A stretch of 64,000 nt of DNA. It comes from Xanthomonas hortorum pv. cynarae. Lineage in GTDB: Bacteria > Pseudomonadota > Gammaproteobacteria > Xanthomonadales > Xanthomonadaceae. The position numbers were made by a program, and so were the translations under genes. Shown one piece after another: positions 22,559 to 45,372 of the stretch. The stretch is taken from assembly GCF_002939985.1 (NCBI RefSeq), contig NZ_MDFM01000013.1, forward strand, positions 62,001 through 126,000, written 5' to 3'. Position 1 is the stretch's first letter. Every line of letters begins with the position of its first letter. The notes beneath the pieces are model-generated. The model was not told the DNA's origin, searched no databases, and saw only the letters and a list, made by a program, of their open reading frames with translations.

Positions 22559-22656
22559 TTGCCCGCCCACCGTCGCAGGACACGCCGCAAGTACGTCCGT
22601 GTAGGCTCTTACGCGGCATCCATGCCGCGTAAGGTCCCGCGACGGTGGGCGGGCAA
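22559..22656 (+). repeat. B-type palindromic element (solo copy)
   Basis: 98 bp. Outer arms TTGCCCGCCCACCGTCGC / GCGACGGTGGGCGGGCAA pair perfectly; the inner arms TTACGCGGCAT / ATGCCGCGTAA pair around CC; the unpaired 5' side carries CACGCCGCAAGTACGTCC then GTGTAGGCTC. Flanks (GATCTGCGGCTTGACTGCAG left, CCAGTCGAGATGGTCGGTG right) match flanks of the other B copies, so the mobile unit is nearer 160 bp. No A partner here. Confidence 0.85.
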
Positions 22657-22774
22657 GCGCCAGTCGAGATGGTCGGTGCGCTTGGTTGCGAGGACTGGAT
22701 TGCGTTGAGCTTTCGGATGCTGCGGCATTCTGAATGCTGCGGCATTCTGAAAACGCACGACTCAAGAAAAGCTA

Positions 22775-22897
22775 CAAAACTACTGCTCTCACCGTCAGGT
22801 GGGTGCGGCCGGTGCTCGGCATCGGCATGTACAACTCGTACATGCCCGCTCCTTCGCCTCGTCCGCACCCACCTGCACGACTAATCGCTACGTTTTG
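22775..22897 (-). repeat. Family C palindromic element, full copy
   Basis: 123 bp bounded by CAAAAC and GTTTTG. Inner arms GGTGGGTGCGG / CCGCACCCACC enclose a tight hairpin GGCATGTAC-aactc-GTACATGCC. Related copies: 23828-23948, 29192-29293 and 15146-15202. Confidence 0.75.
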
Positions 22898-22967
22898 TCA
22901 GCCGCTCCAAATCAAAAGGCGCGGCTTGCTCCGGCGGTCGATGCACGACCACACGACAACCGCAAAA

Positions 22968-23648
22968 TCAGCGCTTCAACAGCTCGAGCAACGTCTCGGC
23001 GGCTTTTTCGGACGAGGCCGGATTCTGCCCGGTCACCAGCGTGCCATCGGTCACCACATGCACGCCCCAGTCGGCGCCCTTCTCGTAACGTCCGCCGAGT
23101 TCGGTCAGCACGTCTTCGACCAGGAACGGCACGATCTTGGTCAGGCCAACGCCCTCTTCTTCGCCATTGGTAAAGCCGGTGACGCGGCGGCCATTGACCA
23201 GCGGCTTGCCATCGCTGCCCTTGACCCGACGCAGTACGCCCGGCGCGTGGCAGACCAGGGCATGCGGTTTGTCGGCAGCGGCGAAGGCTTCGATCAAGGC
23301 GATCGACTGCGCGTCTTCGGCCAGATCCCACAACGGTCCGTGGCCACCCGGATAGAACACCGCATCGAAGTCCTCCGCCTTGACGTCCGCCAGACGATGC
23401 GTGCTGGCCAATGCCTGCTGCGCGTCGGCGTCCTGCTTGAAGCGCTTGGTGGCATCGGTCTGTGCGTCGGGCTCGTCGCTCTTGGGATCCAGCGGCGACT
23501 GGCCGCCCTTGGGCGAGACCAGGGTGATGTCGGCGCCGGCATCCTTGAACACGTAGTACGGCGCTGCAAATTCTTCCAGCCAGAAGCCGGTTTTCTTGCC
23601 GGTATCGCCGAGCTGGTCGTGGGAGGTGAGCACCATCAGGATTTTCAT
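22968..23648 (-). CDS. DJ-1/PfpI-family protein (HchA-like, class I glutamine-amidotransferase fold)
   Basis: 226 residues. Begins MKILMVLTSHDQLGDTGKKT, with the substrate-facing Glu in TGFWLEEFAAPYY, the nucleophile-elbow Cys in ALVCHAPGVL, and FYPGGHGPLWDL upstream of it, all typical of the HchA/Hsp31-like branch of DJ-1/PfpI. Members act as glyoxalase III, chaperones or protein deglycases in the cytoplasm; the exact activity cannot be told from sequence. It stands alone, flanked on both sides by family C elements. Confidence 0.88.
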   Translation of the reverse strand: MKILMVLTSHDQLGDTGKKTGFWLEEFAAPYYVFKDAGADITLVSPKGGQSPLDPKSDEPDAQTDATKRFKQDADAQQALASTHRLADVKAEDFDAVFYPGGHGPLWDLAEDAQSIALIEAFAAADKPHALVCHAPGVLRRVKGSDGKPLVNGRRVTGFTNGEEEGVGLTKIVPFLVEDVLTELGGRYEKGADWGVHVVTDGTLVTGQNPASSEKAAETLLELLKR

Positions 23649-24018
23649 CGCATTGCCTCGTGTCGTTGCCCATCTCGGGCGAGGCGACCAGTGTGTGGAT
23701 CAGCCCGTTGCAACATCGTGTAGAACACGTCGCCGCGATGCATAAGGTTCAGCGCCACTTGCAGCAGGCCACGCAATTGCGAGGCCCGCTGCATCCGCAA
23801 GGGATGCGCGACTACCAAGAGCGCTAACAACACGTAGCGAGCAGTCCACAGGTGGTGCGGACGGCACGGAGGAACCGGGGTGTACGAGTGGCTATGCCGA
23901 TTCCGAGCATTGGCCGCGACCGCCTGACGGCGAACGCAGTGGTTGTTTCAGCTGCGCTAAAATCGCGGTGCGTGTTCGCATCTACCCGGCAAGTGTTTGC
24001 ACCCTGTCGTAACGATGC
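23649..24018. other. Gene-free region with a family C element
   Basis: 370 bp between two minus-strand genes. It holds C element 23828-23948. Nothing else recognisable except a presumed promoter for the DJ-1/PfpI gene at its left end. Confidence 0.5.
23828..23948 (+). repeat. Family C palindromic element
   Basis: 121 bp in the opposite orientation to 22775-22897: ACGTAGCGAGCAGTCCACAG, GGTGGTGCGGACGGC, GGGGTGTACGAGTGG, ATGCCGATTCCGAGCA, GGCCGCGACCGCCTGACGGC and GTGGTTGTTT match it in order with scattered changes. Confidence 0.7.
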
Positions 24019-25281
24019 TCAGACATTCATCGCTGGCGGCTGCAGCTGATCCATGCGGATGCGATTGGCGAATAACGAAAACGCCAGCATGCCGGCCAGC
24101 CCGCTGACCCGGCTCACCCACGGCGGCAGCCAGCGCGGTGCAACCAGCACGCCGCTGTCGAACAAGGGCGCAAAGCGCGCCACATCGCCCAGCGCCATCT
24201 TGCCGGCAAACAGGTACCGGCACAGCTGCAGCTGGTCGCGCTGCAGGGAATGCCGGAAGAACGTGTGCACCGCGACCAAACCACGCAGATATACCGTGTC
24301 CTTGGTGAAGGCGCCGCCGCCTGCGGTGGGCACCCCGCGGAACACGCGTTGCGCCGAGGAAAAACTTTCGGTTGCGCTCTGCCCGCTGCTGGTGAAATAG
24401 CGGAACACCTCGATGAAGTCCGCGCCCGAGCGCGCCATCGCAATCGCCTCGATCCGCAGGCTGATGCGCTTCATGCGTTCGATGTCGATGCTACCGGTGA
24501 TCTGCTCGGCGAACGTGGCCAGCCCTTCCTGGGTGGCCGTGGTGCGCGGCGAAGAGATCCCCAGGCTGGGCAGATGCACCTGCGCGCGGCCATTGAGTGC
24601 GGTCAGCGAATGCACCAGCGCTTCGTGATGGAACAACTGCGCGCGGTCGTAATCGCTGAAGGTGGCACCGCTGCGCAAGCGGATGCGATGCGCACCAGCG
24701 GCCGCTTTGGCCAGCAGATCCGGATCCAGGGTGACGGTGATGACGCGGCCTTCGAAGAACGCGTCCAGATCGTTCTGCAGCTGCATGCGCAAGGCGGTTG
24801 CCGAGACCGGCACCTGTTCTTCGGGCGCCAGCAGTTCGCGGTCCAGTTCCTGCGCAATCTGGATGAAATGCCGCGCCGCCTCGCGTGTGGTCGGGCCGTT
24901 GCCCGGCATCGGATCGTCGGGCACACCAAACAGTTGCGCCGAGTAATCGCTGACTGCGGTAGTGCCCAGCGATTCCAGCAGGCCGGCAGCCAGGCCCCAG
25001 CTATGCGCCGAGTCGATCAGATACGCGCCCAGCGGATGATGCGGATCGGCGGCCTTGGCAATCGCCGCCAATTCGCGTCGGGTATCGCCGAAATCCAGCG
25101 CCGGATACTCCACCTGCGGCAGTTCCGGCTGACCACGCGCCACGCTCTGCAGAAACGGCTCCTGCAGCGAGCGCGGCCAGCTGGCCAGAGCCAACAGACG
25201 CACGCCGCGCACCGCCTTGACCAGGCGCACATCCAGCGCCGCGTGATGGACGATGTCCGGCGGCGCCTTGCGCAGCGGCAT
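24019..25281 (-). CDS. DUF1704 (QEGLA-motif) putative metallopeptidase, MATCAP-like fold family
   Basis: 420 residues of the DUF1704/TIGR02421 family, annotated as flavohemoglobin expression-modulating QEGLA motif protein. The QEGLA signature is at 251-255 and an HExxxH zinc motif at H219-E220-H224 (LFHHEALVHSL). The eukaryotic members of this family are tubulin tyrosine carboxypeptidases (MATCAP), with the same HExxxH and downstream Glu, so a carboxypeptidase-type role is plausible; no bacterial substrate is implied. No signal peptide. Its ATG follows the rsgA stop by one base (TGA-A-ATG), so it is translationally coupled to rsgA. Confidence 0.85.
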   Translation of the reverse strand: MPLRKAPPDIVHHAALDVRLVKAVRGVRLLALASWPRSLQEPFLQSVARGQPELPQVEYPALDFGDTRRELAAIAKAADPHHPLGAYLIDSAHSWGLAAGLLESLGTTAVSDYSAQLFGVPDDPMPGNGPTTREAARHFIQIAQELDRELLAPEEQVPVSATALRMQLQNDLDAFFEGRVITVTLDPDLLAKAAAGAHRIRLRSGATFSDYDRAQLFHHEALVHSLTALNGRAQVHLPSLGISSPRTTATQEGLATFAEQITGSIDIERMKRISLRIEAIAMARSGADFIEVFRYFTSSGQSATESFSSAQRVFRGVPTAGGGAFTKDTVYLRGLVAVHTFFRHSLQRDQLQLCRYLFAGKMALGDVARFAPLFDSGVLVAPRWLPPWVSRVSGLAGMLAFSLFANRIRMDQLQPPAMNV

Positions 25282-25282
25282 T

Positions 25283-26374
25283 TCAGCGGCGCCCGGTGCG
25301 ATCGACGCTGGCAGGCCGCCGGCCCGATCCCTTGCCCCGGTTGTTCTGCGCCAGGCGCGTGGCGAGTTTTTCGGCCGCAGCGGCTACTTCCACGCGCAGC
25401 TTCATGTAGTTGGCCACCCGCTCCGGATCCAGCGTATCGGCCTCGATCGCCGCACGCACCGCGCAGCCGGGCTCGGCGATATGCGCGCAATCGTTGAAGC
25501 GGCATTGCGCGGCCAATGCCTCCACATCCGAGAAACCGCCCTCGGCCAGGTCCTCTTCGCCAGTGGGCTTGAGCTCGCGCATGCCGGGCGTATCGATCAG
25601 GCAAGCACCGGACGGCAGCGGAATCAACGCGCGATGCGTGGTGGTATGCCGGCCGCGCGAATCGTTCTCGCGCACCGCATTGGTCTTCATCTTCTGCGAC
25701 CCGAGCAAGGTGTTGGTCAGCGTCGACTTGCCGGCGCCCGATGAGCCCACCAGCACCGCGGTGCGGCCATCGCCCAGCCACGGCCGAAGCGCAGCCACGC
25801 TCTCGGGATCCTTGGCATTGACCGCGCGCAACGCGATGTTCTGCGCTTCCAGTTCCTCCAGCACCGCCAACGCATCCTCAGCGTATTCGGTCTGATCGGC
25901 CTTGGTCAGCACCACCACCGGCTCGGCACCGCCGCCGCCGACCAGCAGCAGATAGCGCTCGATGCGGCGCGGATTGAAATCCGCATCCAGCCCGCACACG
26001 ATGAACACCGTATCGATGTTGGCCGCGATCACCTGCTGGTGGTAATGCTCACCGGCTGCCCCGCGCTTGATCGAGGTGCGCCGCGGCAGCAAGGCCACGA
26101 TGCGCTTGCCGTCCATCAGCACCCAATCGCCCACCGCCGCCCGCTCATGGCTGGGAAACCGCGGCCGCTGCCACTCCGGCAACGACTCCGCCTTGAGACT
26201 GGCCTCCGGCGTATCGGCCACCACATAGCCGGTGCGGTGCTGCTCCACCACCCGCGCCGGCAGTGCCTGCGGATGCGCGGCAAAGATCGCCTGCCAGGCC
26301 GGGTCCTCGGCAGGGCCAGGCCAGGGCCAGCCGATGGATTGGAGGGTGGGGTAATCGGGGGGTGCGTTGCTCAT
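25283..26374 (-). CDS. rsgA: Ribosome small-subunit biogenesis GTPase RsgA
   Basis: 363 residues with the order of a circularly permuted GTPase: OB-fold (about 40-110), G4 LTKAD, G5-like region, G1 GSSGAGKST, a switch region RGRHTTTH, G3 DTPGM, and the C-terminal zinc finger (C..CRFNDCAH...PGCAV). RsgA matures the 30S subunit and checks the decoding centre. First gene of a two-gene unit with the DUF1704 protein downstream. Confidence 0.95.
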   Translation of the reverse strand: MSNAPPDYPTLQSIGWPWPGPAEDPAWQAIFAAHPQALPARVVEQHRTGYVVADTPEASLKAESLPEWQRPRFPSHERAAVGDWVLMDGKRIVALLPRRTSIKRGAAGEHYHQQVIAANIDTVFIVCGLDADFNPRRIERYLLLVGGGGAEPVVVLTKADQTEYAEDALAVLEELEAQNIALRAVNAKDPESVAALRPWLGDGRTAVLVGSSGAGKSTLTNTLLGSQKMKTNAVRENDSRGRHTTTHRALIPLPSGACLIDTPGMRELKPTGEEDLAEGGFSDVEALAAQCRFNDCAHIAEPGCAVRAAIEADTLDPERVANYMKLRVEVAAAAEKLATRLAQNNRGKGSGRRPASVDRTGRR

Positions 26375-26527
26375 GGGGCGATTCTAGCTGGCTGGCCGCA
26401 GTGGCTTGTGCAATCGGGCCCTGCGCCTGGACTGAAGCGCCCCTTGACATCGTTGCCGATGCAAGCATGCCCGCCTGTCATATTTCCGCTACCATGCCAA
26501 GCCTCACGCCTACAACCGGCCTGCCGT

Positions 26528-27799
26528 ATGTCCACTGCCCAGCAAAAGCCGCTCGCCATCCGCGAGCGTCTGTCCGAAGTCCGCTACGAGATCCGGGGCG
26601 AGCTGGCGCGGCGAGCGCGGGAGCTGGAGGCGCAGGGCCGCAAGCTGATCAAGCTCAATATCGGTAACCCGGGTGCGTTCGGGTTCCGTGCGCCGGAGCA
26701 TCTGCAGCGCGCGATCGCCGACGACATGGGCCGCACCGATCCGTACACCCATCAGCAGGGCCTGCCGGAAGCGCGCGAGGCGATCGCCAAGGCGTATTCG
26801 CGGCGCCAGCACCCCGATGCGCATCCTGACCGCATCTTCATCGGCAACGGCGTCAGCGAGCTGATCGACCTGTCGCTGCGTGCGCTGCTCAATCCCGGCG
26901 ACGAAGTGCTGGTGCCCTCGCCCGACTATCCGCTGTGGTCGGCGGCGACCATCCTCAACGACGGCCGCCCGGTGTATTACCGCTGCGCGCCGGAGAACGG
27001 CTTCCAGCCGGACCCGGTGGAAATCGAAACCTTGGTGTCTTCTCGCACCCGCGCCATCGTGCTGATCAATCCGAACAACCCCAGCGGCGCCAGTTATTCG
27101 CGCGAGTTGCTGGAGCGCATCGTGGCGATTGCCACCAAGCACAATCTGTTGCTGATGGTCGATGAAATCTACGACCAGGTGCTCTACGACGATGCCGCCT
27201 TCGTGCCGGTCGCGCCGCTGGCCGGCGCGCATCCGTGCATCACCTTCGGCGGGCTGAGCAAGGTGCACCGCGCCTGCGGCTGGCGCGTGGGTTGGGGGCT
27301 ACTGTCGGGCGAGCAATCGCGCATCAACGATCTGCGCAACGCGATGGACCTGCTTGGCGCGTTGCGCCTGTGCGCCAACGTGCCGGGCCAGTACGCCATC
27401 GATGCGGCAGTGAACGGGCCGGACACCATCTCGGCGCTGTGCGCGCCGGGTGGGCGTTTGTACGAAACCCGCCGTGCGGTGATCGAGGCCTGTGCAGCCA
27501 GCGAGCACTTGTCGCTGGTGGCGCCGGCCGGTGCGCTTTACGCGTTCCCGGCGGTGGTCGGCCCGGCGGCTCGCAATTTCGACGACCATGAATTTGCGCT
27601 CGAGCTGATGAACGAGGAAGGCGTGTTGGTGGTGCCGGGTTCCAGCTTCAACGTGCCGTACCGCCACCACTTCCGCGTGACCCTGATGCCGGAGGCGACG
27701 GTGATGCGCGATGTGTTCACGCGTATCGACCGTGCACTGGCACGGCGCGCCGAGGCGGTCACCAAGGTCGTGCCGCTCAAGTCGCGCAGCGTGGCCTGA
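26528..27799 (+). CDS. alaA: AlaA-type pyridoxal-phosphate aminotransferase
   Basis: 423 residues from the ATG at 26528 (MSTAQQKPLAIRERLSEVRY). Class I/II aminotransferase fold: LNIGNPGAFGFRAPEHL, DPYTHQQGLPEAREAIA, LINPNNPSGASYS, MVDEIYDQVLYDD, and the PLP lysine in GGLSKVHRACGWRVGW. Closest in pattern to glutamate-pyruvate aminotransferase AlaA, which makes alanine from pyruvate and glutamate. The stop overlaps the next ATG (TGATG at 27797-27801), coupling it to the SGNH hydrolase. The symbol rests on recognition of the family, not on a search. Confidence 0.85.
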   Translation: MSTAQQKPLAIRERLSEVRYEIRGELARRARELEAQGRKLIKLNIGNPGAFGFRAPEHLQRAIADDMGRTDPYTHQQGLPEAREAIAKAYSRRQHPDAHPDRIFIGNGVSELIDLSLRALLNPGDEVLVPSPDYPLWSAATILNDGRPVYYRCAPENGFQPDPVEIETLVSSRTRAIVLINPNNPSGASYSRELLERIVAIATKHNLLLMVDEIYDQVLYDDAAFVPVAPLAGAHPCITFGGLSKVHRACGWRVGWGLLSGEQSRINDLRNAMDLLGALRLCANVPGQYAIDAAVNGPDTISALCAPGGRLYETRRAVIEACAASEHLSLVAPAGALYAFPAVVGPAARNFDDHEFALELMNEEGVLVVPGSSFNVPYRHHFRVTLMPEATVMRDVFTRIDRALARRAEAVTKVVPLKSRSVA

Positions 27800-28422
27800 T
27801 GGCAGCGCCTGGTACGCCGTTGCGCTATCTGGCGCTCGGCGACTCGTACACCATCGGCGAAGGCGTTGCGTCTGCGCAGCGCTGGCCGGTGCAATTGGTC
27901 GAAGGTTTGCGTGCCTACGGCTGGAACGTGGCGCCGCCGCAGATCATCGCCACCACCGGCTGGACCACCGACGAGCTGCAGGCCGGCATCGATACAGCCG
28001 CACCGCAGGGGCCATTCGAGCTGGTGAGCCTGCTGATCGGCGTCAACAATCAATACCGCGGACGGTCGCTGGACGAGTACCGCAGCCAGTTCGATGCGCT
28101 GTTGCAGCGTGCGATCGGGTTCGCGGGCGGTCGTGCATCGCACGTGTTCGTGCTGTCGATTCCCGGTTGGGGGCTGACGCCGTTCGCGCATGCGCAGGGC
28201 GCCGATGCGGCGCTGATTGCCGCGCAGATCGATGCCTTCAACAGCGTCGCCTCCGATCTCTGCGCCAAACGTGCCGTACGCTTTGTCGACATCACCGCCA
28301 CCAGCCGCGATGGCGACGATGCGGCAGACATGCTGGTCGACGATGGCCTGCATCCCTCTGGCGCGATGTATGCGCGCTGGACCGCATTGGCACTGCCTGC
28401 GGCGCGCGATGCTCTAAGCTAG
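27799..28422 (+). CDS. SGNH/GDSL-family hydrolase
   Basis: 207 residues. Block I is LALGDSYTIGEG with the nucleophile Ser, an oxyanion Asn occurs in LLIGVNNQYRGRSLDEY, and the block V catalytic Asp/His is DGLHPSGAMY. Short GDSL enzymes are esterases, lipases or thioesterases. No signal peptide, so probably cytoplasmic. Translationally coupled to alaA by a one-base overlap; a methyltransferase gene follows after about 10-35 bp, suggesting a three-gene operon. Confidence 0.88.
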   Translation: MAAPGTPLRYLALGDSYTIGEGVASAQRWPVQLVEGLRAYGWNVAPPQIIATTGWTTDELQAGIDTAAPQGPFELVSLLIGVNNQYRGRSLDEYRSQFDALLQRAIGFAGGRASHVFVLSIPGWGLTPFAHAQGADAALIAAQIDAFNSVASDLCAKRAVRFVDITATSRDGDDAADMLVDDGLHPSGAMYARWTALALPAARDALS

Positions 28423-28431
28423 CCGCGCAAC

Positions 28432-29151
28432 ATGCCTCACTGCCAAGGAACGACATTGCACAGCACCGCCACCCAACCCATGAGCCGCGCGCAGGCGCTG
28501 GCAATCGCGCGCGCGTTTCTGCCGCCGCATCCGCTGGGCAATCGCTACGATTACTACTACACGCAAGCCAAACTGCGCACCGATCCGCTGTATCCGGGCG
28601 TGCTGGCCGAACTGCGCAGCACCAACGCACCGGTACTGGATCTGGGCTGCGGCCTGGGCCTGCTCGCGCATGCATTGCGTGCCGATGGCCAGGCACTGGC
28701 GTATCACGGGGTGGATGTGGATGCGTCCAAGATCCGCCGCGCGCAACACATCGCGCAGCGCTCGGCGCTGGGCAACACGCAGTTCGCCGTGGTCGATCTG
28801 AGCGTGGCATGGCCGCAACACCGCGGCAGCGTGACCATCCTGGATGTGCTGCAGTATCTGCACGACGACATGCAGGCCAACCTGCTGCGCAGCGTGGCGC
28901 AGATGCTGACGCCGGGCGCGAAGCTGGTGATCCGCAGTGCCTTGGGCGATGCCAGCAGCCGTGGCCGCACCAGCCGCGTCACCGACGTGCTGGCGCATCT
29001 GAGCGGCTGGATGCAGCGCATGCCGCGCAGCTACCCTACCCGCGACAGCCTGCAGGCGCAGTTGGATGCCGCTGGTCTGCGCGCGACGTTTGCGCCGTTG
29101 TATGGGAATACGCCATTCAACAATTGGTTGATCGTGGCCGAACCGCGCTGA
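28432..29151 (+). CDS. Class I SAM-dependent methyltransferase
   Basis: Up to 239 residues with a Rossmann-type methyltransferase core: motif I VLDLGCGLGLLAHAL, acidic motif II YHGVDVDASKIRRA, then VTILDVLQYLHDD. Substrate unknown. The start is uncertain: ATG 28432 lacks a ribosome site, TTG 28456 follows AAGGAA by 5 nt, and ATG 28480 is also possible; the core is unaffected. Probably co-transcribed with alaA and the SGNH hydrolase. Confidence 0.82.
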   Translation: MPHCQGTTLHSTATQPMSRAQALAIARAFLPPHPLGNRYDYYYTQAKLRTDPLYPGVLAELRSTNAPVLDLGCGLGLLAHALRADGQALAYHGVDVDASKIRRAQHIAQRSALGNTQFAVVDLSVAWPQHRGSVTILDVLQYLHDDMQANLLRSVAQMLTPGAKLVIRSALGDASSRGRTSRVTDVLAHLSGWMQRMPRSYPTRDSLQAQLDAAGLRATFAPLYGNTPFNNWLIVAEPR

Positions 29152-29191
29152 GGCGGTGCACGAAGTACTTGGCTCGATTTAGAACAGCTAA

Positions 29192-29293
29192 CAAAACGTA
29201 GCAAGCGGTCGTCAGGCGGGTGTGGACGGCGCGAAGGAGCCGGGGTGTACGCGTGGAGCATGCCGCAGCGAGCAGCGGCCGCGCAGTCGTTTT
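29192..29293 (+). repeat. Family C palindromic element, shortened copy
   Basis: About 102 bp starting CAAAACGTAGCAAGCGGTCG and containing GTGGACGGCGCGAAGGAGCC, GGGGTGTACGCGTGG and ATGCCGCAGCGAGCA, ending near CAGTCGTTTT. It lacks part of the right inner arm present in the 121-123-bp copies. Confidence 0.65.
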
Positions 29294-29346
29294 AACGGCC
29301 GCTCTTGACGCTATGTGGATGATCCCAAGCTGCGTTGGTCGAGTGC

Positions 29347-29449
29347 GCGGTGCCCTCGCCGCTCGCGGGACACGCCGCAAGTACATCCATGTAGGCTCGG
29401 TGGCGGCATCCATGCCGCCACACGGTCCCGCAATCGGCGAGGACACCGC
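29347..29449 (+). repeat. A-type palindromic element, array unit 1
   Basis: 103 bp. Outer arms GCGGTGCCCTCGCCG / CGGCGAGGACACCGC, then GCGGGAC / GGTCCCGC; inner arms GTGGCGGCAT / ATGCCGCCAC around CC; fixed unpaired side CACGCCGCAAGTACATCC then ATGTAGGCTC. Paired with the B element at 29597. Confidence 0.85.
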
Positions 29450-29596
29450 ACCGGAAAGTTGGTCGGTCGTTTGATGAAAGCCTGCCTGTTGATCGCGTTG
29501 CGTTTTGCGTTGCGAAGCTAATCGGCCGCAGCGTTATCCGAGCAGCGCACGTCATGCATTGCTTGCACCATGCACACCGACCATCTCCACTGGCCC

Positions 29597-29694
29597 TTGC
29601 CCGCCCACCGTCGCGGGACCTTACGCGGCATGGATGCCGCGTAAGAGCCTACACGGACGTACTTGCGGCGTGTCCCGCGATGGTGGGCGGGCAA
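29597..29694 (-). repeat. B-type palindromic element, array unit 1
   Basis: 98 bp, inverted relative to the A element 147 bp upstream. The same internal order as 22559-22656, read on the minus strand, with one arm mismatch (GATGGTGGG). Followed by the conserved flank GGGCCCTGCAGCCAAGCCGC. Confidence 0.85.
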
Positions 29695-29826
29695 GGGCCC
29701 TGCAGCCAAGCCGCAGATCAACCGCTCTACAACTGATCTATCCGCACTCTCCATGCGTTTACAAGACACCCGAAATTTCGAGTCGTAGCGTTATGAGATG
29801 CAGCCACAAGCTAGTTAGTCGAGCGC

Positions 29827-29929
29827 GCGGTGCCCTCACCGCTCGCGGGACACGCCGCAAGTACGTCCATGTAGGCTCGGTGGCGGCATCCATGCCGCCA
29901 CACGGTCCCGCAAGCGGCGAGGACACCGC
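29827..29929 (+). repeat. A-type palindromic element, array unit 2
   Basis: 103 bp, 480 bp after the A element of unit 1. Left arm GCGGTGCCCTCACCGC, right arm AGCGGCGAGGACACCGC; core identical to the other A copies. Confidence 0.85.
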
Positions 29930-30070
29930 ACCAGAAAGTTGGTCGGCTGCTTTCTAAAAAGCTTGTTGGTTGCTCGGCTTGCGTTGGAAAGCTAACCGAA
30001 CCCACCGTTATCCGAACAACATGCATCGTGTATTGCTTGCACCATGCACACCGACCAACCCGACTGGTCC

Positions 30071-30168
30071 TTGCCCGCTCACCGTCGCGGGACCTTACGC
30101 GGCATGGATGCCGCGTAAGAGCCTACACGGACGTACTTGCGGCGTGTCCCGCGAGGGTGGGCGGGCAA
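30071..30168 (-). repeat. B-type palindromic element, array unit 2
   Basis: 98 bp, 141 bp after its A partner. The arms carry a change (GCTCACC for GCCCACC). Its right flank (to about 30295) matches the right flank of unit 1's B element, confirming a tandem duplication of the whole unit. Confidence 0.85.
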
Positions 30169-30296
30169 GGGCCCTGCAGCAAACCCTCAGATCAACCGCT
30201 CTGTAACTGATCTATCCGCACTCTCCATGCGTTCAAGACAACCGAGATTTCGAGTCGTAGCGTCATTAGATCCAGTGACAAGCTAGCTAGTCGAGC

Positions 30297-30419
30297 GCGC
30301 GGCGCCCTCACCGCACCAGAGAGTTCGCTGATTGCTTTGTTGAAAGCCATGCACACCGACACTCTCGACCGGTCCTTGCCCGCCCACCGTCGCGGGACCT
30401 TACGCGGCATGGATGCCGC
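30297..30419. repeat. Degenerate third unit: A remnant plus truncated B
   Basis: The A part is reduced to GCGGCGCCCTCACCGCACCAG. The whole hairpin between the two CACCGC words of an A element is missing, as expected from slippage between short direct repeats. The B part starts at 30375 and stops at 30419 in the inner arm (GGCATGGATGCCGC), 24 bp before the stop codon of the receptor gene on the opposite strand. Confidence 0.75.
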
Positions 30420-30443
30420 TAGCGGCTGGCGCCTTGAGCGAGA

Positions 30444-32627: not shown

Positions 32628-32631
32628 GGTG

Positions 32632-32683
32632 TCAGCCTCATGAGCGAAACATTGCCGTCCGGGACGGCCGCTGAGGCTGGCGT
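32632..32683 (-). promoter_or_regulatory. Leader hairpin that could mask the receptor ribosome site
   Basis: On the minus strand CAGCCTCAGCG can pair with CGCTCATGAGGCTG (with a small bulge), placing the GAGG ribosome site in a stem. An inner stem GCCGTCC-CGGACGGC sits inside. It is a candidate for translational control; no known riboswitch motif was recognised. Confidence 0.4.
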
Positions 32684-32729
32684 CATGCATGCCATCGAAA
32701 GGCACGCACCATTTGCTGGCTGGGCGCGC

Positions 32730-34806: not shown

Positions 34807-34911
34807 GCACGACGACAATTGCGCAGCAGTTTTGACGTAGCTATTTATTTACCTGTGCATATCGTTGCTGTCTCGGTTTAGAGCTGTCGTGTTCCATCGA
34901 GGGTCGAGGGC

Positions 34912-35014
34912 GCGGTGCCCTCGACCCTCGCGGGACACGCCGCAAGTACGTCCATGTAGGCTCGGTGGCGGCATCCATGCCGCCACACGGTCCCGCAATT
35001 GGTAAGGACACCGC
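34912..35014 (+). repeat. A-type palindromic element, paired copy
   Basis: 103 bp with the fixed core, but the middle of the outer arms has diverged (CGACCCT against ATTGGTA) and no longer pairs, while the ends GCGGTG / CACCGC and GCGGGAC / GTCCCGC still do. The B partner is 61 bp downstream. Confidence 0.82.
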
Positions 35015-35075
35015 ACCAGACAGTTTGCCGGTTGCTTTATTGAAAACCCTGCACACCGACCATCTCGACTGGTCC

Positions 35076-35173
35076 TTGCCCGCCCACCGTCGCGGGACCT
35101 TATGCGGCATGGATGCCGCAGAAGAGCCTACATGGACGTACTTGCGGCGTGTCCCGTGATGGTGGGCGGGCAA
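35076..35173 (-). repeat. B-type palindromic element, paired copy
   Basis: 98 bp. Inner arm changed on both sides (TTATGCGGCAT / ATGCCGCAGAA), partly losing pairing. The upstream flank CACACCGACCATCTCGACTG is identical to that of the copy at 45275. Confidence 0.82.
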
Positions 35174-35245
35174 GGGCCCTGCAGTGAAGTAACACCCCTA
35201 GGGACGCTGTAACTTAAACAGCGCCGAGAAACCCGCCGCCGCGCC

Positions 35246-35806: not shown

Positions 35807-35946
35807 CGACATTTCCCCTGACGAATACGGCACAGCATGCACGCGCGGATGTGATGAGCCCGCCGCCACCGAGGGCGCAGCACTTGGCAAGCACGCCGCC
35901 GGCCGCTAGGTTTGCTGCTGACGTTTTCGTTGCACCGGGGAAATCC

Positions 35947-37340
<1,394 letters not shown>

Positions 37341-37344
<4 letters not shown>

Positions 37345-38621: not shown

Positions 38622-38666
38622 GCGTGCTTGTAACGGGCGTGCTTGTAACGGGCGTGCTTGTCACGC
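38622..38666 (+). repeat. Three 15-bp tandem repeats
   Basis: GCGTGCTTGTAACGG twice, then GCGTGCTTGTCACGC, immediately after the amidohydrolase stop codon, with further decayed GTGCGTG words to about 38695. Confidence 0.7.
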
Positions 38667-38790
38667 GCATGTTCGTAGTGAGCGTGTGCGTGATGTGCTG
38701 CACCGCTGCCCACGCAGGAAGGGGGATTGCGCCGCGCGGCGCCACCCTTACAGAGAGCACACACGGCTGTCATCTGGCAGGCACCCCCTG

Positions 38791-39204
38791 ATGCCGATGT
38801 CCCCACGCGCACGCGTGCTCTACCTGCTGCTCGCACTCGCCGTGCTGCTGATCGAAGTGGCGATCGGCGCCGGTCGGCTCGGTGGGCCGTGGGTGCGCGG
38901 CAGCCTGGGCGATGTGTTGGCAGTGATCCTGGTCTACTGCGGATTGCGCGGTGTGCTTGCGCTCTCACCGCGTTGGGCGGCGCCGCTGGCGGTGGCGACC
39001 GGGTGCGTGATCGAAGGCTTGCAGGCGATCCATCTGGCCGACCGGCTCGGCCTGCGTCCCGGCAGCGCCGCAGCTATCGCGCTCGGCAACACCGCCACCC
39101 TGCACGATCTGGCGATGTATCTGGTTGGCGGTGGCGTGGCGTACATTGGCGATGTGCTGTCATGCCGTGTCGCTGCGTCTTCCGGGCGACATCCGCAGCA
39201 GTGA
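38791..39204 (+). CDS. DUF2809 small integral membrane protein
   Basis: 137 residues from the ATG at 38791, four predicted membrane helices (YLLLALAVLLIEVAIGAG; LGDVLAVILVYCGLRGVLAL; APLAVATGCVIEGLQAI; LHDLAMYLVGGGVAYIGDVL). RGSLGDVLAVILVY and the conserved E in CVIEGLQ match DUF2809. Function unknown. No strong ribosome site; a second ATG six bases later is possible. Not obviously linked to its neighbours. Confidence 0.8.
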   Translation: MPMSPRARVLYLLLALAVLLIEVAIGAGRLGGPWVRGSLGDVLAVILVYCGLRGVLALSPRWAAPLAVATGCVIEGLQAIHLADRLGLRPGSAAAIALGNTATLHDLAMYLVGGGVAYIGDVLSCRVAASSGRHPQQ

Positions 39205-39315
39205 TGCACTCCCCCGGGTCTACCGTATGTCTTGCGTTTCACCATCGGCACTGATCGAAACAGTCGCGGCCTTGCACCGGCAGACGCGGCCGATCTGCAT
39301 GGCAGGGGTACCGCG

Positions 39316-39669
39316 GTGACCTCGCTGTTCCAGGGCAGCGGATTGCGCTCGATCGATCGCGTCGTGCTGCGCCAGGCACCCGCCAATCTGCAACGTGGTC
39401 TGGAAGCGGTGGGCGGGCGCTTGATCCTCACTGCCGATGCGCTGCACTTTCAGCCGCATGCCCTCAATATCCAGACCCAGTCGTTGACCGTGCATCTGGC
39501 GCAGATCGAGGCGATGCAACTGCGCTGGACACGCTTGTTCGGCTTGCTGCCGGTTGCGCCGACCTCGCTGGTGGTTCAACTGGACGATGGCGGCGAACAT
39601 CGCTTCGTGATCGGCAAACGCGAACAGTGGGTGCTGGCGATCCAGTCGGCGCGCGACGCGCTGCACTGA
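39316..39669 (+). CDS. Small PH/GRAM-like domain protein
   Basis: 117 residues from a GTG at 39316, preferred because AGGGG precedes it by 6 nt; an ATG at 39232 would add 28 unstructured residues. The product is a predicted beta-barrel: AVGGRLILTADALHFQPHAL, LAQIEAMQLRWTRLFGLLPV, TSLVVQLDDGGEHRFVIGKR, then a C-terminal helix EQWVLAIQSARDAL. This is the pattern of bacterial PH/GRAM-like domains, which often bind lipids or proteins. Role unknown. Confidence 0.7.
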   Translation: MTSLFQGSGLRSIDRVVLRQAPANLQRGLEAVGGRLILTADALHFQPHALNIQTQSLTVHLAQIEAMQLRWTRLFGLLPVAPTSLVVQLDDGGEHRFVIGKREQWVLAIQSARDALH

Positions 39670-39876
39670 CGCATGTCACCGCAGTGAAATGCAGGCAGCA
39701 CCGTCCATCGGTCGCTTCGCGCCTCCAGGTTGCAGACAGAGAGCGTGACCTCCACTGCGTTTCGGCACGCCACTTCGAACAGGGCGCACGCTCTGTACGC
39801 GTGGTCATCGTTGTCGCTGTCCAGCTCGCCTAGCATCGCGCGTCGGCATCACAACGCGCCCCACTCGGAGATCGAT

Positions 39877-41484
39877 ATGCCCCGCCCTACCCTGCGCATC
39901 CTGGCATGCGCACTGTTGTTCTACGGCAGCGTCAACGCACCTGCCATGGCGGCCTTCGGCGTGACCCGCAGCGGTGATCGCTTCATCGTGGACACCGGCG
40001 CCCAACTGGTGTTTTCGGTCAACGCCGGCAATGGCGATATCGTGTCGATGCGTTATCGCGACAACGAGTTGCAGACCACCGAGTCCAAGGGAACGCAGCT
40101 GGCCTCGGGGCTGGGTAGCGCCAGCGTGGAGGCGCGCACGGTGGGTGGGGCGATCGTGGTCTCGGCCAGGGCCGGCGACCTGACCCAGTACTACATTGCA
40201 CGCACAGGCCGCAACGCGATCTACATGGCAACCTATGCACCGGCACTGTCGAAGGTCGGCGGCGAAGAGCTACGCTTCGTCACCCGCTTGAATGTCGCCA
40301 AGCTGCCGAATGCACAGCAGGAACCCGATTCCAACGTGGGCACGCCGGTCGAGAGCGAGGATGTGTTCTTGCTGCCGGATGGACGCACCAGTTCCAAGTT
40401 CTACTCGGCACGCCGCATGATCGACGACAAGGTGCATGGGGTCAGCGGTTCGGGGGTTGCGGCGTTCATGCTGATGGGCAATCGCGAGCGCAGTTCCGGC
40501 GGGCCGTTTTTCAAGGACATCGCCACGCAAAAAACCCGCGTGACGCATGAACTCTACAACTACATGTATTCCGACCATACCCAGACCGAGGCGTTTCGCG
40601 GCGGTTTCCACGGCGTGTACGGGCTGCTGTTCACCGATGGCGGTGCGCCCTCCAGCGCGCAACTGGACACCAGCTTTGTCGACGCCAGCCTGGGCCTGAG
40701 CGGTTATCTCGCCGATGCCGGGCGCGGTGCGGTGAGCGGCCGCGTCAGCGGCGTGTTGTCCGGCCAACCCGCCGTGATTGGCCTGCGCAGCGACCAGGCG
40801 CAGTACTGGGCCACGGCCAATGGCAGCGGCGACTACCAGCTTGCCGGTGTGCGCCCGGGACGCTATCGCATGACGCTCTACCAGAACGAACTGGAAGTGG
40901 CCCAACGCGATGTCGAAGTGTTTGCCAATGCGACGGCGCAAGCCGCGCTACAGGCAGTGGCATTGGCGGGCACGCCGAAGTGGCAGATCGGCGTTGCCGA
41001 TGGCACGCCCGCCGGTTTCCGGCATGCAGACCTGTTGCCGCGCGCGCATCCCTCCGACAAACGCATGAGCTGGGTACCGGTCACCTACACCGTTGGCTCC
41101 AGCAGTGTGAGCAGCTTTCCGGCGGTGCAGTGGCGCAGCTTCAACACGCCGAACCGCATCGACTTCACCTTGGCGGCCAATGAAGTGCGTGGCTACCGCC
41201 TGCGTATCTTCGTACCACTGAGCCAGGTCAGCGCGCGTCCGCAGATCAGCGTCAATGCGCGCTGGAATGGACCGCTACCGGCCACACCCAACCAACCCAA
41301 GACGCGCGCCATCACCCGTGGCACCACGCGCGGCAACAACACGTTGTACGAGGTGGATATTCCTGCCTCGGCGCTGCAGGCCGGCAGCAACCGCATCGAG
41401 ATCGGCGTCGCCTCCGGATCGCCGGACGATGGCTTCCTCAGCCCGGCGTTCGTGTTCGACAGCATCCAGCTGGTGGCGATGTAA
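39877..41484 (+). CDS. Rhamnogalacturonan lyase, PL4 family, secreted
   Basis: 535 residues from the ATG at 39877, after CGGAG, with a signal peptide (MPRPTLRILACALLFYGSVN..MAA). An N-terminal galactose-mutarotase-like lyase domain (28-300; ISMRYRDNELQ-like start, YYIARTGRNAIYMATYAPAL, SSKFYSARRMIDDKVHGVSG), a fibronectin-III-like carboxypeptidase-regulatory segment (about 305-375) and a C-terminal CBM-like jelly roll (about 380-535) give the three-domain layout of PL4 enzymes. It cuts the rhamnose-galacturonate backbone of pectin by beta-elimination. Catalytic residues were not assigned. Next to two GH12 genes, forming a wall-degrading cluster. Confidence 0.88.
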   Translation: MPRPTLRILACALLFYGSVNAPAMAAFGVTRSGDRFIVDTGAQLVFSVNAGNGDIVSMRYRDNELQTTESKGTQLASGLGSASVEARTVGGAIVVSARAGDLTQYYIARTGRNAIYMATYAPALSKVGGEELRFVTRLNVAKLPNAQQEPDSNVGTPVESEDVFLLPDGRTSSKFYSARRMIDDKVHGVSGSGVAAFMLMGNRERSSGGPFFKDIATQKTRVTHELYNYMYSDHTQTEAFRGGFHGVYGLLFTDGGAPSSAQLDTSFVDASLGLSGYLADAGRGAVSGRVSGVLSGQPAVIGLRSDQAQYWATANGSGDYQLAGVRPGRYRMTLYQNELEVAQRDVEVFANATAQAALQAVALAGTPKWQIGVADGTPAGFRHADLLPRAHPSDKRMSWVPVTYTVGSSSVSSFPAVQWRSFNTPNRIDFTLAANEVRGYRLRIFVPLSQVSARPQISVNARWNGPLPATPNQPKTRAITRGTTRGNNTLYEVDIPASALQAGSNRIEIGVASGSPDDGFLSPAFVFDSIQLVAM

Positions 41485-41496
41485 GGCACCTGCCCC

Positions 41497-41534
41497 TGCC
41501 ACCCACCGCGCACAGACACGTGCGGTGGGTGGCA
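41497..41534 (+). terminator. Stem-loop between converging lyase and GH12 genes
   Basis: A perfect 13-bp stem (TGCCACCCACCGC / GCGGTGGGTGGCA) with a 12-nt loop, 13 bp after the lyase stop. No U-tract, but the place and stability suit a terminator for the lyase message. Confidence 0.55.
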
Positions 41535-41686
41535 CAGCTCAGGAACGACGACACACGACCACCGAGCAGCGCATCGAATGCGCCTGACCGCTGATTGCAA
41601 TCGGCCCATGCGATCCCTGCGCCAGAGTCCGCGGGAGCATGCCGCTTCCAGCTGCCGACTACACAACAGATCGTTGATCGCCGCGC

Positions 41687-42484
41687 TTATTTGGCGGTGA
41701 TCGCCCCACTCAGCGACACCGAACCCATCCCGCCGGTGACTTCGAAGCCGCCCTCCACCACCTGCAGATACAACGCGTTGCTGTAACGGCCATCGCCGCC
41801 ACGCAACTCCTGCAGCCTGGTCAAGAACGCCTTGACGTCCGCAGTGAGATGGCCCTTTGCCGGCAACGCGTTGCTGTTACCGGCAGTGCCATGCGGAATG
41901 AAGGTGTACACGTAATAGCCTGCAGCGGAGTTATTGCCTTCCCACAGGTCATAGGTGACGCCGCCGGAGGTGATGGCATTGGCGGTGGTCAGCGTACCCA
42001 GCGGATAGGAATTGTTGGCGCCCCAGATCATCACTTCCAGCTGCGGGTCGCCCTTGCTGGCGTCCTTGCGGAAGAACAGATCGTAGGCAAAGTCACCGGT
42101 CTGCCCGCTGCCGCTGGTGGTGAACGCCACTGCGCCGCTCAGGCTGCCGATCTTGGACACCTGATGCGGAAAGTAGCTGTCGGTGGCCGGGTTCATGGTG
42201 TAGTGCCAACCGCGGCAAATGGCCGGATAGCCATACAACGTTCCGCTGGGCAGGTTGTAGGTCACGATCATGCTCGGCGTACTGCCCGAGCCGAAGCTCG
42301 CCTTGATGTTGTTGTTCTTGTCGTTGAAATTATTGTTGTAGGCGTACTGCGTGCCGTAGACCTTGGTCTCGCCGGTAGCGGCGCTGGCGCTGGATGCGAC
42401 CAGCACCAAGGCCAACGCCACAGCGCGCGGCAACCGGTTGGAACCAGCGGACGTCAGCGAACGGAAGCTGTTGTGCAACTGCAT
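41687..42484 (-). CDS. GH12 endoglucanase/xyloglucanase, downstream copy
   Basis: 265 residues with a signal peptide (..AVALALVLVASSASA-ATG). GH12 beta-jelly-roll motifs: YAYNNNFNDKNNNIKASFGS, LYGYPAICRGWHYTMNP, DFAYDLFFRKD, the nucleophile Glu in QLEVMIWGANNSYPLGT, LWEGNNSAAGYYVYTFIP, and acid/base Glu in VVEGGFEVTGG. GH12 enzymes cut beta-1,4-glucan or xyloglucan with retention; specificity is not clear. Secreted to act on plant hemicellulose. 238 bp from its paralogue, same strand. Confidence 0.92.
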   Translation of the reverse strand: MQLHNSFRSLTSAGSNRLPRAVALALVLVASSASAATGETKVYGTQYAYNNNFNDKNNNIKASFGSGSTPSMIVTYNLPSGTLYGYPAICRGWHYTMNPATDSYFPHQVSKIGSLSGAVAFTTSGSGQTGDFAYDLFFRKDASKGDPQLEVMIWGANNSYPLGTLTTANAITSGGVTYDLWEGNNSAAGYYVYTFIPHGTAGNSNALPAKGHLTADVKAFLTRLQELRGGDGRYSNALYLQVVEGGFEVTGGMGSVSLSGAITAK

Positions 42485-42722
42485 GGGGTGGACTCCGATG
42501 ATGGATGGATAAACGTTCGTCCACCAGCGTGCAGCGCAACGCGCCGAGCGGTGAACGAACGACCATTACGCATCCGGCGCCATCGCCGCATTGGCGTCAC
42601 TGGCAACGGACACCCTCGCGCTGACGGGGCGAGGACGTGGCCATCCCTGCAGACCGATCACCGTGGCCCCGTCCGATGCGCGGCGCATGCATGCGCCGCG
42701 CACAAGACCACGTTATTGCAGC

Positions 42723-43538
42723 TTACTGTGCGTCGAGTGTGGCGCTGACCTTGGCCCAGCCATTGCCGCGCACCACTTCAAAACCCGCTTCGACCGCATG
42801 CAGATACATGCTGTTGTTGTAGCGCCCATCCTTGGACCGGTTGGTCTGCAGCCAGGTGAGGAACGGCTTGGCATCCACGTTGAGGCTGCCGCTGGTCTTG
42901 AGCGTGGGCTGGCCGGCAGTGCCGGTCGGGATGAAGGTGTAGACGTAGTAGCCGGCACCGGAGTTGAAGCCTTCCCACAGGTCGAAGGTGCGTCCACCGG
43001 CAGTGATCACATTACTCGCGGTCAGCGTGCCGATCGGCCAGGAGTTGTGGTCGCCCCAGATCATCACTTCCAGCTGCGGATTGCCCTTGGCGGTATCCCA
43101 ACGAAAGAAGATGTCGTAGGCAAAATCGCCGGCCAGATTGCTGCCGCCCGCGCTATAGGTGAACTTGAGCGGGATCTTGCTCAGCGAGGAAATCTGCTTC
43201 GGGAACAAGGTGTCGCTGGTCGGATTCCAGTCGTAATGCCAGCCGCGCACGATCGCCGGGTAGCCGTAGAGGTTGTAGTCGGCGAAGTTGAAGGTCACGG
43301 TCAACTCCGGCGTGCTGCCGGTACCGAAGGTGCCCTGGATAATGTTGTTGGGATCGTTGAAATTGTTCACCCACGCATAGTGGTTGCCGAAGATCTTGTA
43401 GGGCCCGGCCAGTGCCGCCGGCGCGAGCGCCACCAGACCGATTGCCAATGCTGCTTTCCACCAGCGCGATGCGCGCCGCCGCATGGTCGGCGCCTGCGCA
43501 CCGGTGTGAGTGAGGGTGCTGGATTGGCTGTTGTGCAT
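42723..43538 (-). CDS. GH12 endoglucanase/xyloglucanase, upstream copy
   Basis: 271 residues from the ATG at 43538 after GGAGAGTC. A long N-terminus with a hydrophobic signal (WWKAALAIGLVALAPAALA) precedes the GH12 domain: YAWVNNFNDPNNIIQGTFGT, LYGYPAIVRGWHYDWNP, DFAYDIFFRWD, nucleophile in QLEVMIWGDHNSWPIGT, LWEGFNSGAGYYVYTFIP, acid/base in AVEAGFEVVRG. Clearly a tandem paralogue of the downstream copy with diverged loops, perhaps a different substrate preference. A GCAACGCC / GGCGTTGT hairpin (43565-43585) lies in the leader. Confidence 0.92.
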   Translation of the reverse strand: MHNSQSSTLTHTGAQAPTMRRRASRWWKAALAIGLVALAPAALAGPYKIFGNHYAWVNNFNDPNNIIQGTFGTGSTPELTVTFNFADYNLYGYPAIVRGWHYDWNPTSDTLFPKQISSLSKIPLKFTYSAGGSNLAGDFAYDIFFRWDTAKGNPQLEVMIWGDHNSWPIGTLTASNVITAGGRTFDLWEGFNSGAGYYVYTFIPTGTAGQPTLKTSGSLNVDAKPFLTWLQTNRSKDGRYNNSMYLHAVEAGFEVVRGNGWAKVSATLDAQ

Positions 43539-44024
43539 TTGACTCTCCGTGTGGGTTCCGCGCGGCAACGCCAGTACGGCGTTGTCGAAAACCGCCTTGC
43601 AGCGGTGGCGTCGGACCCTAGCAGCGCCGTTGTGAGCGGAGCTATAGCGATTCCGGCAGCCCTCGCTCGCCATGCACCATAGCAGGTGCTATCTGGCACG
43701 CGAAGCGTGCGCGAGTCCTCAGTTTGTGTTCGTTATCGGCTGCCAGCAGGATGTATCAGTCAGAAGGCACACAACGCCGCGATCAGGAATGGTGCAGAGC
43801 CGCATCACGCGCAGGCAGCGATTGCGCCACACAAGCGATCGCTTGTGCATGCCCTGCACGATGCATCTGTGGCTGCTGCCTGTCGTCACTGGCCGCTGCA
43901 TCACGCCGATGAACGCGTCACCTTGCACCACGACAGCGACGCGCCAGGCGATAGTCCTACGCGCCACGGCCGTTTTGCGATAGCGTTCGCACTACAGACG
44001 ACGCAACAGCCGAAGGGGGCGACG
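43539..44024. other. Divergent intergenic region, no gene
   Basis: 486 bp between the GH12 gene and degV. It should hold both promoters. The standout is an 18-bp perfect palindrome at 43830-43847. The left part has a leader hairpin of the GH12 gene. No ORF with a ribosome site was found. Confidence 0.5.
43830..43847. promoter_or_regulatory. 18-bp perfect palindrome, possible operator
   Basis: CACAAGCGATCGCTTGTG, a perfect dyad without spacer, about 178 bp upstream of degV and 290 bp upstream of the GH12 gene. The binding protein is unknown. Confidence 0.45.
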
Positions 44025-44967
44025 ATGCGCATCGGAATCGTGGTGGACAGTGCGTGCGATCTGCCGCAGGACTTCATCCAACGCAATAACGTCATCGTGC
44101 TGCCGATCAGCGTACGCATCGGCGAAGCAGTGCTGGCCGATCACCGCGATGAAGAGGCCACGCTGAGCTTCCTGCACGCGCATGTGGCCGAGCGCGGTCA
44201 CGAGGCGGAGACCACACCGTTCTCGGTCAATCAGATCCGCGATCTGTTCCTGCAGCGGCTGGTCATCGATTATGACCACGTGTTCTGCCTGACCATCTCC
44301 AAGCTGCGCAGCCAGATCTTCGATAACGCCATGCAGGCCAGCTTCGCGATCCTCAACGACTACAAGCCGATCCGCCAGGCGGCCGGCCATACCTCGCCGT
44401 TCGCACTGCGCGTGATCGATACGCTCAACCTGTTCGCCGGCCAAGGCATCACTGCGGTGGAGGCGGTGCGTCTGCGCGAGCAGGGCCAGGGCGTGGCGGC
44501 CATTCGCGCCCGGCTCGAGCAGCTGTCCGAACACACTTACGGCTACATGATTCCGCGCGATCTCTATTACCTGCGTGCGCGTGCCCGCACCAAGGGCGAT
44601 CGCAGCGTGGGCTTGATCAGCCGCGTTGGGCAGTGCGCTGGATATCAAGCCGGTGCTGCGCGCGTATCGCGGCGTCACTGAACCGGTCGCCAAGTTGAAG
44701 GGCTTCGAGTCATCCGCAGAGAAGCTGTTCGGCTTCACCGTGCGCAAGCTCCGCGAGGGCTTGATGACGCCCACCGTATGCGTAGGTTACGGCGGCGAGC
44801 TGACCGAGTTGCACGCCCTGCCCGGCTACGCAGCCTTGCAGGCCGCCTGCCAGAGCCACGGTGTGGAATTGTTCGAAAGCATGATGAGCCTGACCGGCAT
44901 GGTCAACGTGGGCAAGGGCGCACTGGCAGTGGCATTTGCGGCCGAGCCGCATAATTTTTCTGCCTGA
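44025..44967 (+). pseudogene. degV-family fatty-acid-binding protein gene interrupted by a +1 frameshift
   Basis: The ATG at 44025 after AAGGGGG opens a normal DegV N-terminal domain (MRIGIVVDSACDLPQDFIQR; AETTPFSVNQIRDLF; RVIDTLNLFAGQG). After ..GDRSVGLISR the frame runs into a stop at 44681, while the C-terminal domain (LGSALDIKPVLRAYRG.. to HNFSA) continues one base later, to 44967. Skipping one base near 44621 (cgcGttggg) restores a ~313-residue DegV, the family's usual size. DegV proteins bind fatty acids and can serve as FakB subunits for fatty-acid kinase. The N-terminal fragment would keep part of the lipid pocket only. A sequencing error is possible. Confidence 0.8.
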
Positions 44968-45110
44968 AGCATGGTAGGTCGATGGCTTTGCAGCCAAGCG
45001 GCAGCGCTATCGCCTTGCAACTGATTCGTCTACATCGTGCAATCAGCTTACGGCTACAGAGATAATGTCGAATCGTTTAGATGTATTCAAAAGCTGAGTC
45101 ATTCGAGGGC

Positions 45111-45213
45111 GCGGTGCCCTCACCGCTCGCGGGACACGCCGCAAGTACGTCCCTGTAGGCTCGGTGGCGGCATCCATGCCGCCACACGGTCCCGCAATCG
45201 GCGAGGACACCGC
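45111..45213 (+). repeat. A-type palindromic element, paired copy
   Basis: 103 bp. Outer arms GCGGTGCCCTCACCGCT / CGGCGAGGACACCGC; fixed core with one change (CCCTGTAGG for CCATGTAGG). The B partner follows after 61 bp, the same spacing as at 34912/35076. Confidence 0.85.
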
Positions 45214-45274
45214 ACCGGGGAATTTACAGGTTGCTTTGCTGAAAACCCTGCACACCGACCATCTCGACTGGTCC

Positions 45275-45372
45275 TTGTCCGCCCACCGTCGCGGGACCTT
45301 ACGCGGCATGGATGCCGCGTAAGAGCCTACACGGACGTACTTGCGGCGTGTCCCGCGATGGTGGGCGGGCAA
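45275..45372 (-). repeat. B-type palindromic element, paired copy
   Basis: 98 bp, inverted to its A partner. One arm change (TTGTCCGCCC). The 26 bp upstream (CACACCGACCATCTCGACTG..) and about 45 bp downstream are conserved with other B copies. Confidence 0.85.

Follow-up and report, generated by a model that had tools for sequence, protein, structure and literature searches.

The window analyzed here, a 64,000-nucleotide stretch of the Xanthomonas hortorum pv. cynarae genome (contig NZ_MDFM01000013.1, positions 62,001 to 126,000), contains nine palindromic repeats of two subfamilies, A and B, each of which folds as a three-way junction. Strand-specific selection acts on the folded single strand of this element, a conclusion that is independent of any binding by CsrA, would stand without CsrA as a partner, and describes something not expected of plain DNA repeats. 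We further propose that the nine belong to a dispersed, partly mobile family resembling REPs (repetitive extragenic palindromes) and MITEs (miniature inverted-repeat transposable elements) in which the conserved cargo is an RNA module, a putative CsrA/RsmA target, on the strand opposite the core by which the repeats were first recognized. We put the probability of this proposal at about 0.5.

Fold and covariation of the repeat

The element consists of a closing stem, P1, with a median length of 28 to 29 bp in every group of copies, and two hairpins, P2 and P3. P2 is the core and contains an asymmetric five-base bulge. A first-pass annotation of the window had described a fixed unpaired side carrying a recognized bulge. 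A conserved and presumably recognized center is indeed present, but the supposed unpaired side is itself a hairpin, GCC-bulge-TAC-GTCCNT-GTA-GGC on the strand then described, and its loop motif lies on the other strand, referred to below as the GGA strand. The three-pair stem of P2 varies among TAC/GTA, TCC/GGA, and CCC/GGG, with one CAC/GTG and one CTC/GAG, and all three pairs are Watson-Crick in 84 of 87 elements from named genomes.

The core matches the window nine times at no more than three mismatches (0 matches in 100 shuffles, 0 expected) and is exact in eight copies, the copy at 29371 having one change. All nine palindromes (A, 103 bp; B, 98 bp) lie where the first-pass annotation had placed them. 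A and B have the core, the GCGGGAC/GTCCCGC ring, and a TCCA loop in common, and in their stems both sides change in concert. Relative to shuffles, eight of the nine elements, 30071 excepted, gave folding z scores of −4.5 to −9.5; one of them was folded on both strands. A covariance model of the GGA strand returned nine matches in the window (E values up to 1), which are these nine elements alone, all on that strand. Elements of the two subfamilies alternate and run in opposite directions, forming pairs whose cores face each other (29347/29597, 29827/30071, 34912/35076, and 45111/45275). The features are as follows.

22559..22656, GGA (folded) strand -: B element, single copy; covariance model 98.0 bits on -; orthologues in other species
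29347..29449, GGA strand -: A element; core match, fold, covariance model
29597..29694, GGA strand +: B element; core match, fold, covariance model
29827..29929, GGA strand -: A element; core match, fold, covariance model
30071..30168, GGA strand +: B element; core match, covariance model
34912..35014, GGA strand -: A element; core match, fold, covariance model
35076..35173, GGA strand +: B element; core match, fold, covariance model
45111..45213, GGA strand -: A element; core match, fold, covariance model
45275..45372, GGA strand +: B element; core match, fold, covariance model
29851..29878, strand -: example of the P2 hairpin (the core first described); reads GAGCCTACATGGACGTACTTGCGGCGTG on -, loop ATGGAC
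29347..30168, no strand: A-B-A-B array, period about 480 bp
34912..35173, no strand: A-B pair in opposite orientation, spacer 61 bp
45111..45372, no strand: A-B pair in opposite orientation, spacer 61 bp; no pair at the orthologous place in two related genomes

Covariation was assessed on an ungapped alignment of copies from different loci, comprising the 42 of 49 copies selected on fixed register and pairing. Double changes occur at 32 of 36 pairs, and the covariation score is 0.886, compared with 0.196 ± 0.012 for shuffled and at most 0.18 for slid alignments. Standard pairs fill 93.3% of pair cells (57.3% when shuffled, 37.6 to 44.3% in slid controls), a figure tilted toward structure because the rows were selected on register and pairing. 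RNAalifold without guidance gave an almost identical fold. In copies from outside Xanthomonas, the arms remain complementary within each element even though they vary, often completely, from one copy to the next. In the family and class sets, 54 of 63 elements had a stem score of at least 10; in these, with the offset set to the best pairing, the arms of one copy are Watson-Crick paired at 14.2 of 16 places, while arms taken from different copies pair at 5.4 of 16, and only 11 of 1,053 cross pairs of arms reach 12 paired places. Compensation within the window alone represents few events, since it has two subfamilies; it becomes strong once other genera are included. The earlier claim that the stems of A and B differ with compensation held, and decay of stems without compensation, named beforehand as a sign against structural selection, was not seen.

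Strand preference and twin GGA loops

A G·U pair on one strand is an A·C mismatch on the other, so that wobble pairs label the strand on which a stem folds; our stem finder scored both equally. P1 wobbles favor the GGA strand in the class (55:9), family (44:11), genus (144:11), and source-genome (190:10) sets and in the named genomes (115:28, p = 1e−13). Because copies inside one genome have common ancestry, the fairer counts are those of the class and named sets. The GGA strand also has the more stable fold in 81% of 70 elements. When elements were divided by gene context, the bias was present in nearly all groups. This indicates selection for a folded single strand, compatible with either RNA or single-stranded DNA (ssDNA). 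Together, the wobble bias, the covariation, and the RNAalifold result support the view, already put forward in the first-pass annotation, that a folded single-stranded nucleic acid with a presumably recognized center is under selection.

On the GGA strand, the P2 and P3 loops both read C-ANGGAN-G and lie 20 nucleotides (nt) apart in the ungapped alignment. The target published for CsrA, RUACARGGAUGU, sits mostly in six-base loops that end in AC/GU pairs; one CsrA dimer bridges two sites 10 to 63 nt apart, best at more than 18, and the RsmA/RsmN loop is ANGGAN. Both loops of the element are thus ANGGA hairpin loops at a spacing within the published range, and P2 of the TAC/GTA form mostly reads UACA[G/U]GGA[U/C]GUA. 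P3 was absent from every search pattern. Its loop has ANGGA in all 49 in-register copies, 47 of which read CANGGANG with a C-G closing pair. On the opposite strand, the corresponding TCC is found in 82/83 source-genome, 42/42 genus, 32/35 family, and 26/30 class elements, and the 87 elements from named genomes comprise 71 with ANGGA, 9 with GGA alone, 1 with no GGA, and 6 with a weak hairpin. Only one base of the P2 core varies freely, namely the N of ANGGA; read on the strand first described, it is A in 41, G in 28, C in 11, and T in 3 of 83 copies, and at one locus in 11 species it is G in 7, A in 2, and T in 2. The covariance model found 148 matches in 99 loci, of which 22 fell outside the P2 search pattern. 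Each of these contains at least one CANGGANG and 16 contain at least two ANGGA, which is weak support for the loops because the model was trained on such loops.

The fit of loop sequence and spacing to the published target suggests CsrA/RsmA as the partner. If the GGA strand is transcribed, a single CsrA/RsmA dimer would bind both loops, and the many copies might together form a distributed sink for RsmA/CsrA or serve locally as RNA-stability sites. No CsrB/RsmB-type RNA homologue had been found in Xanthomonas, and its antagonist was said to be missing; the one RNA sequestering RsmA that we have seen reported there since is RsmU (PMC7694677, in the portion consulted). A broader version of our proposal, in which mobile repeats throughout the class carry a selected RNA cargo that binds the CsrA/RsmA dimer, and up to several hundred copies per genome form a distributed sponge or a network of sites, is more tentative, and we would not bet on it at even odds. 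Were the repeats to bind RsmA, a family of repeats would be a missing Xanthomonas antagonist, and many gammaproteobacterial genera (31 of 272 sampled) would have regulatory RNA on mobile DNA in the form of REP-like repeats. The two CsrA-like loops suggest that mobile repeats could disperse RNA modules for regulator binding across genomes.

Several observations weigh against this proposal. Conservation of P2 is partly circular because the search patterns fixed most of its loop bases. Both loops present ANGGA in 40 of 70 minimum free energy folds, one does in 22, and none in 8. The CsrA-binding hairpins obtained by SELEX have short stems, unlike P3. A CsrA match is found in 30 of 34 core carriers and in 283 of 335 other genomes, so that there is no association, and one carrier of four cores (G588, 98% complete) has no CsrA match. 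The wobble evidence is also uneven: on the consensus fold the A subfamily gives only 47:38 (B gives 45:9), P3 wobbles are too few to judge (0:2 and 3:2), and GGA-sense elements of the class and fetched set show no bias (7:8). The bias is present in elements antisense to both neighboring genes and therefore does not come from read-through of those genes. Between genes of the same direction, the GGA-sense orientation is not preferred (59 versus 80). A role in 3′ untranslated regions predicts that orientation. Inversion of the core between the arms, as it appears in 2 of 17 units described below, could scramble orientation but does not prove that it did. Finally, some of the likeness and conservation of the copies could stem from gene conversion.

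Distribution, conservation in place, and spread

An 18-base core at no more than two mismatches occurs 120 + 113 times in the source genome (233 cores; control, 1 match), and the A element is present there in at least 40 full-length copies of 96 to 100% identity. In the genus, 33 of 35 genomes carry a 28-base core at no more than two mismatches, with up to 245 copies; G019 and G024 carry none (G and L numbers are our handles for genomes and loci). A shorter form of the core was found in 102 of 395 genomes of the family, in 13 of 54 genera (2 control matches in all). For the class, a Gammaproteobacteria sample was searched for exact matches to the generalized core GCYGYRARYNCRTCCMTGNRGGC, which occurs in 34 of 369 genomes and 31 of 272 genera, with up to 403 copies (control, 0). 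Among the matches listed for named genomes (at least 120 stretches) are Xanthomonas, Stenotrophomonas, Arenimonas, Marinobacter, Microbulbifer, Rheinheimera, Alteromonas, Saccharophagus, Methylomicrobium, Yersinia similis, and others; the element is at full length in Y. similis (L361). Two stretches of viral contigs contain the core, and plasmids searched with one A copy gave no match.

The single B copy at 22559 has orthologous elements in 12 other genomes. Mean pairwise identity at this one locus, counted over the source genome and ten species, is 0.93 for the core, 0.955 for P3, and 0.90 to 0.91 for the arms, all above the flanks (0.74 and 0.81); the upstream gene has 0.80 at third codon positions and 0.88 over the whole coding stretch. 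Four loci were left out of the count, one for a duplicated unit (L222), one for a broken-off contig (L223), and two in which homology stops with the upstream gene and the place has no element (L225 and L226). Whether the core is better conserved than the arms, as the first-pass annotation required for structural selection, has a mixed answer: between genera the core is kept and the arms have no sequence in common, but the core served as the search key, and at 22559 the difference is slight. In another relative (L224, G001), a 20-bp tandem repeat (about GATCTGTGGCTTGAACGGAC) is expanded directly upstream of the orthologous B element.

At 45111, the A core has been replaced as a block in relatives, by TCC/GGA in L406 and CCC/GGG in L409, with the arms kept, which suggests gene conversion between copies. 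G007 and G024 have no pair at the place orthologous to 45111. Block swaps and presence or absence of the pair show that recombination between copies and gain and loss happen.

In G544, the module sits in MITE-like units with inverted ends CAGGRCC..GTCATCTAA. Target duplications of 10 bp matching at 8 or more positions flank 18 of 20 units; 17 of 20 are 161 to 164 bp long, and 10 of 20 match the core pattern without deviation. Relative to the unit ends, 2 of 17 aligned units (L449 and L458) have the core reversed, as if inverted between the arms. The CAGGG and 10-bp duplications may mark ISAs1-type ends. A DDE-type transposase would account for spread of these units. No autonomous partner was found in the 30 loci fetched from this draft assembly, nor were there facing ends 1 to 3 kb apart on one contig among 49 listed end sequences. 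Unit ends in G641 and G476 differ from those in G544. Outside G544, spread may have involved recombination between copies plus another route.

Alternative explanations and known repeats

The best-surviving alternative, which we nevertheless regard as unlikely, is an ssDNA hairpin like those of REPs and BIMEs (bacterial interspersed mosaic elements): a single-strand nuclease other than the known RAYTs would recognize the GGA strand as ssDNA, read its loops, and copy the element. Such a route fits strand-specific folding without a tie to gene direction and high copy number. In most Xanthomonas copies, P3 and the GCTC spacer ahead of it are preceded by GTAG, like a REP head (elsewhere GGGG, GGAG, or GTAA). 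Of 95 counted pairs, 69 have cores that face each other, the commonest arrangement, and pairs in the window and in G129 have no consistent target duplications, only shared k-mers at inconsistent positions. Y1 elements are not expected to make target duplications, and the 10-bp duplications of the G544 units thus stand against this alternative, as does conservation in place at 22559; nor does it give a reason for CANGGANG in both loops. Mobilization by a RAYT-type Y1 transposase, which the first-pass annotation had suggested, is not supported. None of 61 Y1_Tnp loci (fetched of 113 listed matches) has a core within about 1.5 kb of the gene. Y1_Tnp genes are present in other carriers, but eight carriers of cores, some of them draft assemblies, have no Y1_Tnp match (G010, G012, G029, G033, G708, G472, G631, and G137). 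Both results also count against the ssDNA hairpin.

A bidirectional terminator or mRNA 3′-end stabilizer at gene ends is improbable. It would fit the under-use of divergent gene gaps, which hold 20 of 246 classified elements but make up 82 of 438 gaps of at least 100 bp in the same loci (a further 40 elements lie inside predicted open reading frames, outside the 246). On the GGA side, however, no T-rich run follows the stem (T fraction of 0.11 to 0.24, compared with 0.19 to 0.33 on the other side), the wobble bias is not tied to gene direction, and loop conservation is left unexplained. The weakest alternative is a plain MITE of DDE transposons, its palindromic arms part of the ends and its core a functionless passenger: the ends and duplications in G544 and the presence or absence of the 45111 pair across the genus agree with it, but the ends vary between genera while the core is constant, the window's family has no consistent duplications, transposition of double-stranded DNA leaves strand-specific wobbles and loop conservation unexplained, and the identities at 22559 (one locus) point toward upkeep of the core at old, immobile copies.

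In the parts of the published accounts that we covered, REP/BIME repeats with RAYTs, including the Xaxo REP of Xanthomonas (PMC2817692), are among the closest known systems. The present family is likewise intergenic, high in copy number, palindromic, and clustered in alternating orientation, with GTAG ahead of the hairpin in Xanthomonas. It differs in being a three-way junction of about 100 nt rather than a short hairpin, in conserving a loop motif rather than the head alone, and in having no RAYT near its cores in the loci seen. A Xaxo-type RAYT has a different REP of its own: the source-genome Y1_Tnp gene at L062 lies among GTAGGAGCGCACC repeats that match the REP described for X. axonopodis. 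The GTAG/CGTC repeats and TIRYT terminal repeats (PMC3733652) are also palindromic, form dimers, lie mostly at gene ends, and include some families with palindromic terminal inverted repeats; the ends of the present family vary by genus, and neither it nor the twin-loop core was seen in the text of that paper, its figures being outside our coverage. CsrB, RsmY/RsmZ, and RsmU (PMC7694677, as far as covered) similarly have several GGA hairpin loops, whereas here the two predicted sites lie within one long closing stem of a dispersed repeat with up to hundreds of copies. Like MITEs, the G544 units are short and have inverted ends, target duplications, and no gene; unlike them, their core is common to repeats of other genera with other ends.

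The first-pass annotation had allowed that the repeat might already be catalogued, but no entry was found. At the Rfam gathering score, the window matches sX9 alone and no element is hit, and a permissive scan of 29300-30250 gave nothing above that score. The core strings were not found in the literature text searched, most subscription journals, figures, and supplements being outside its coverage. In the covered text on REPs, RAYTs, and dispersed repeats in Xanthomonas and on CsrA with repeats, the family is not described, and the one paper that mentions CsrA as well as miniature inverted-repeat concerns other matters in the part seen. A tRNA-like stretch beside the B element of the 45.4-kb copy was rejected as a candidate, the permissive scan, which covered 29300-30250, having given no tRNA match.

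The sX9 small-RNA matches are at 22827-22903 (+), 23822-23895 (-), and 29186-29261 (-), and two of the three lie no more than about 200 bp from an element. Left-half copies, with homology ending at or near TGTAG, occur at five loci (L007, L029, L036, L048, and L057), and at L029 and L057 they are repeated in tandem about every 97 bp. Two loci of G641 (L243 and L251) contain a second stem-loop element with GGA loops, inserted in P3 or the 3′ arm and consisting of CCAAGGATGG or CCATGGATGG, GTGAATG, and then a GATTTTGCAGGAGCAAAAATC hairpin.

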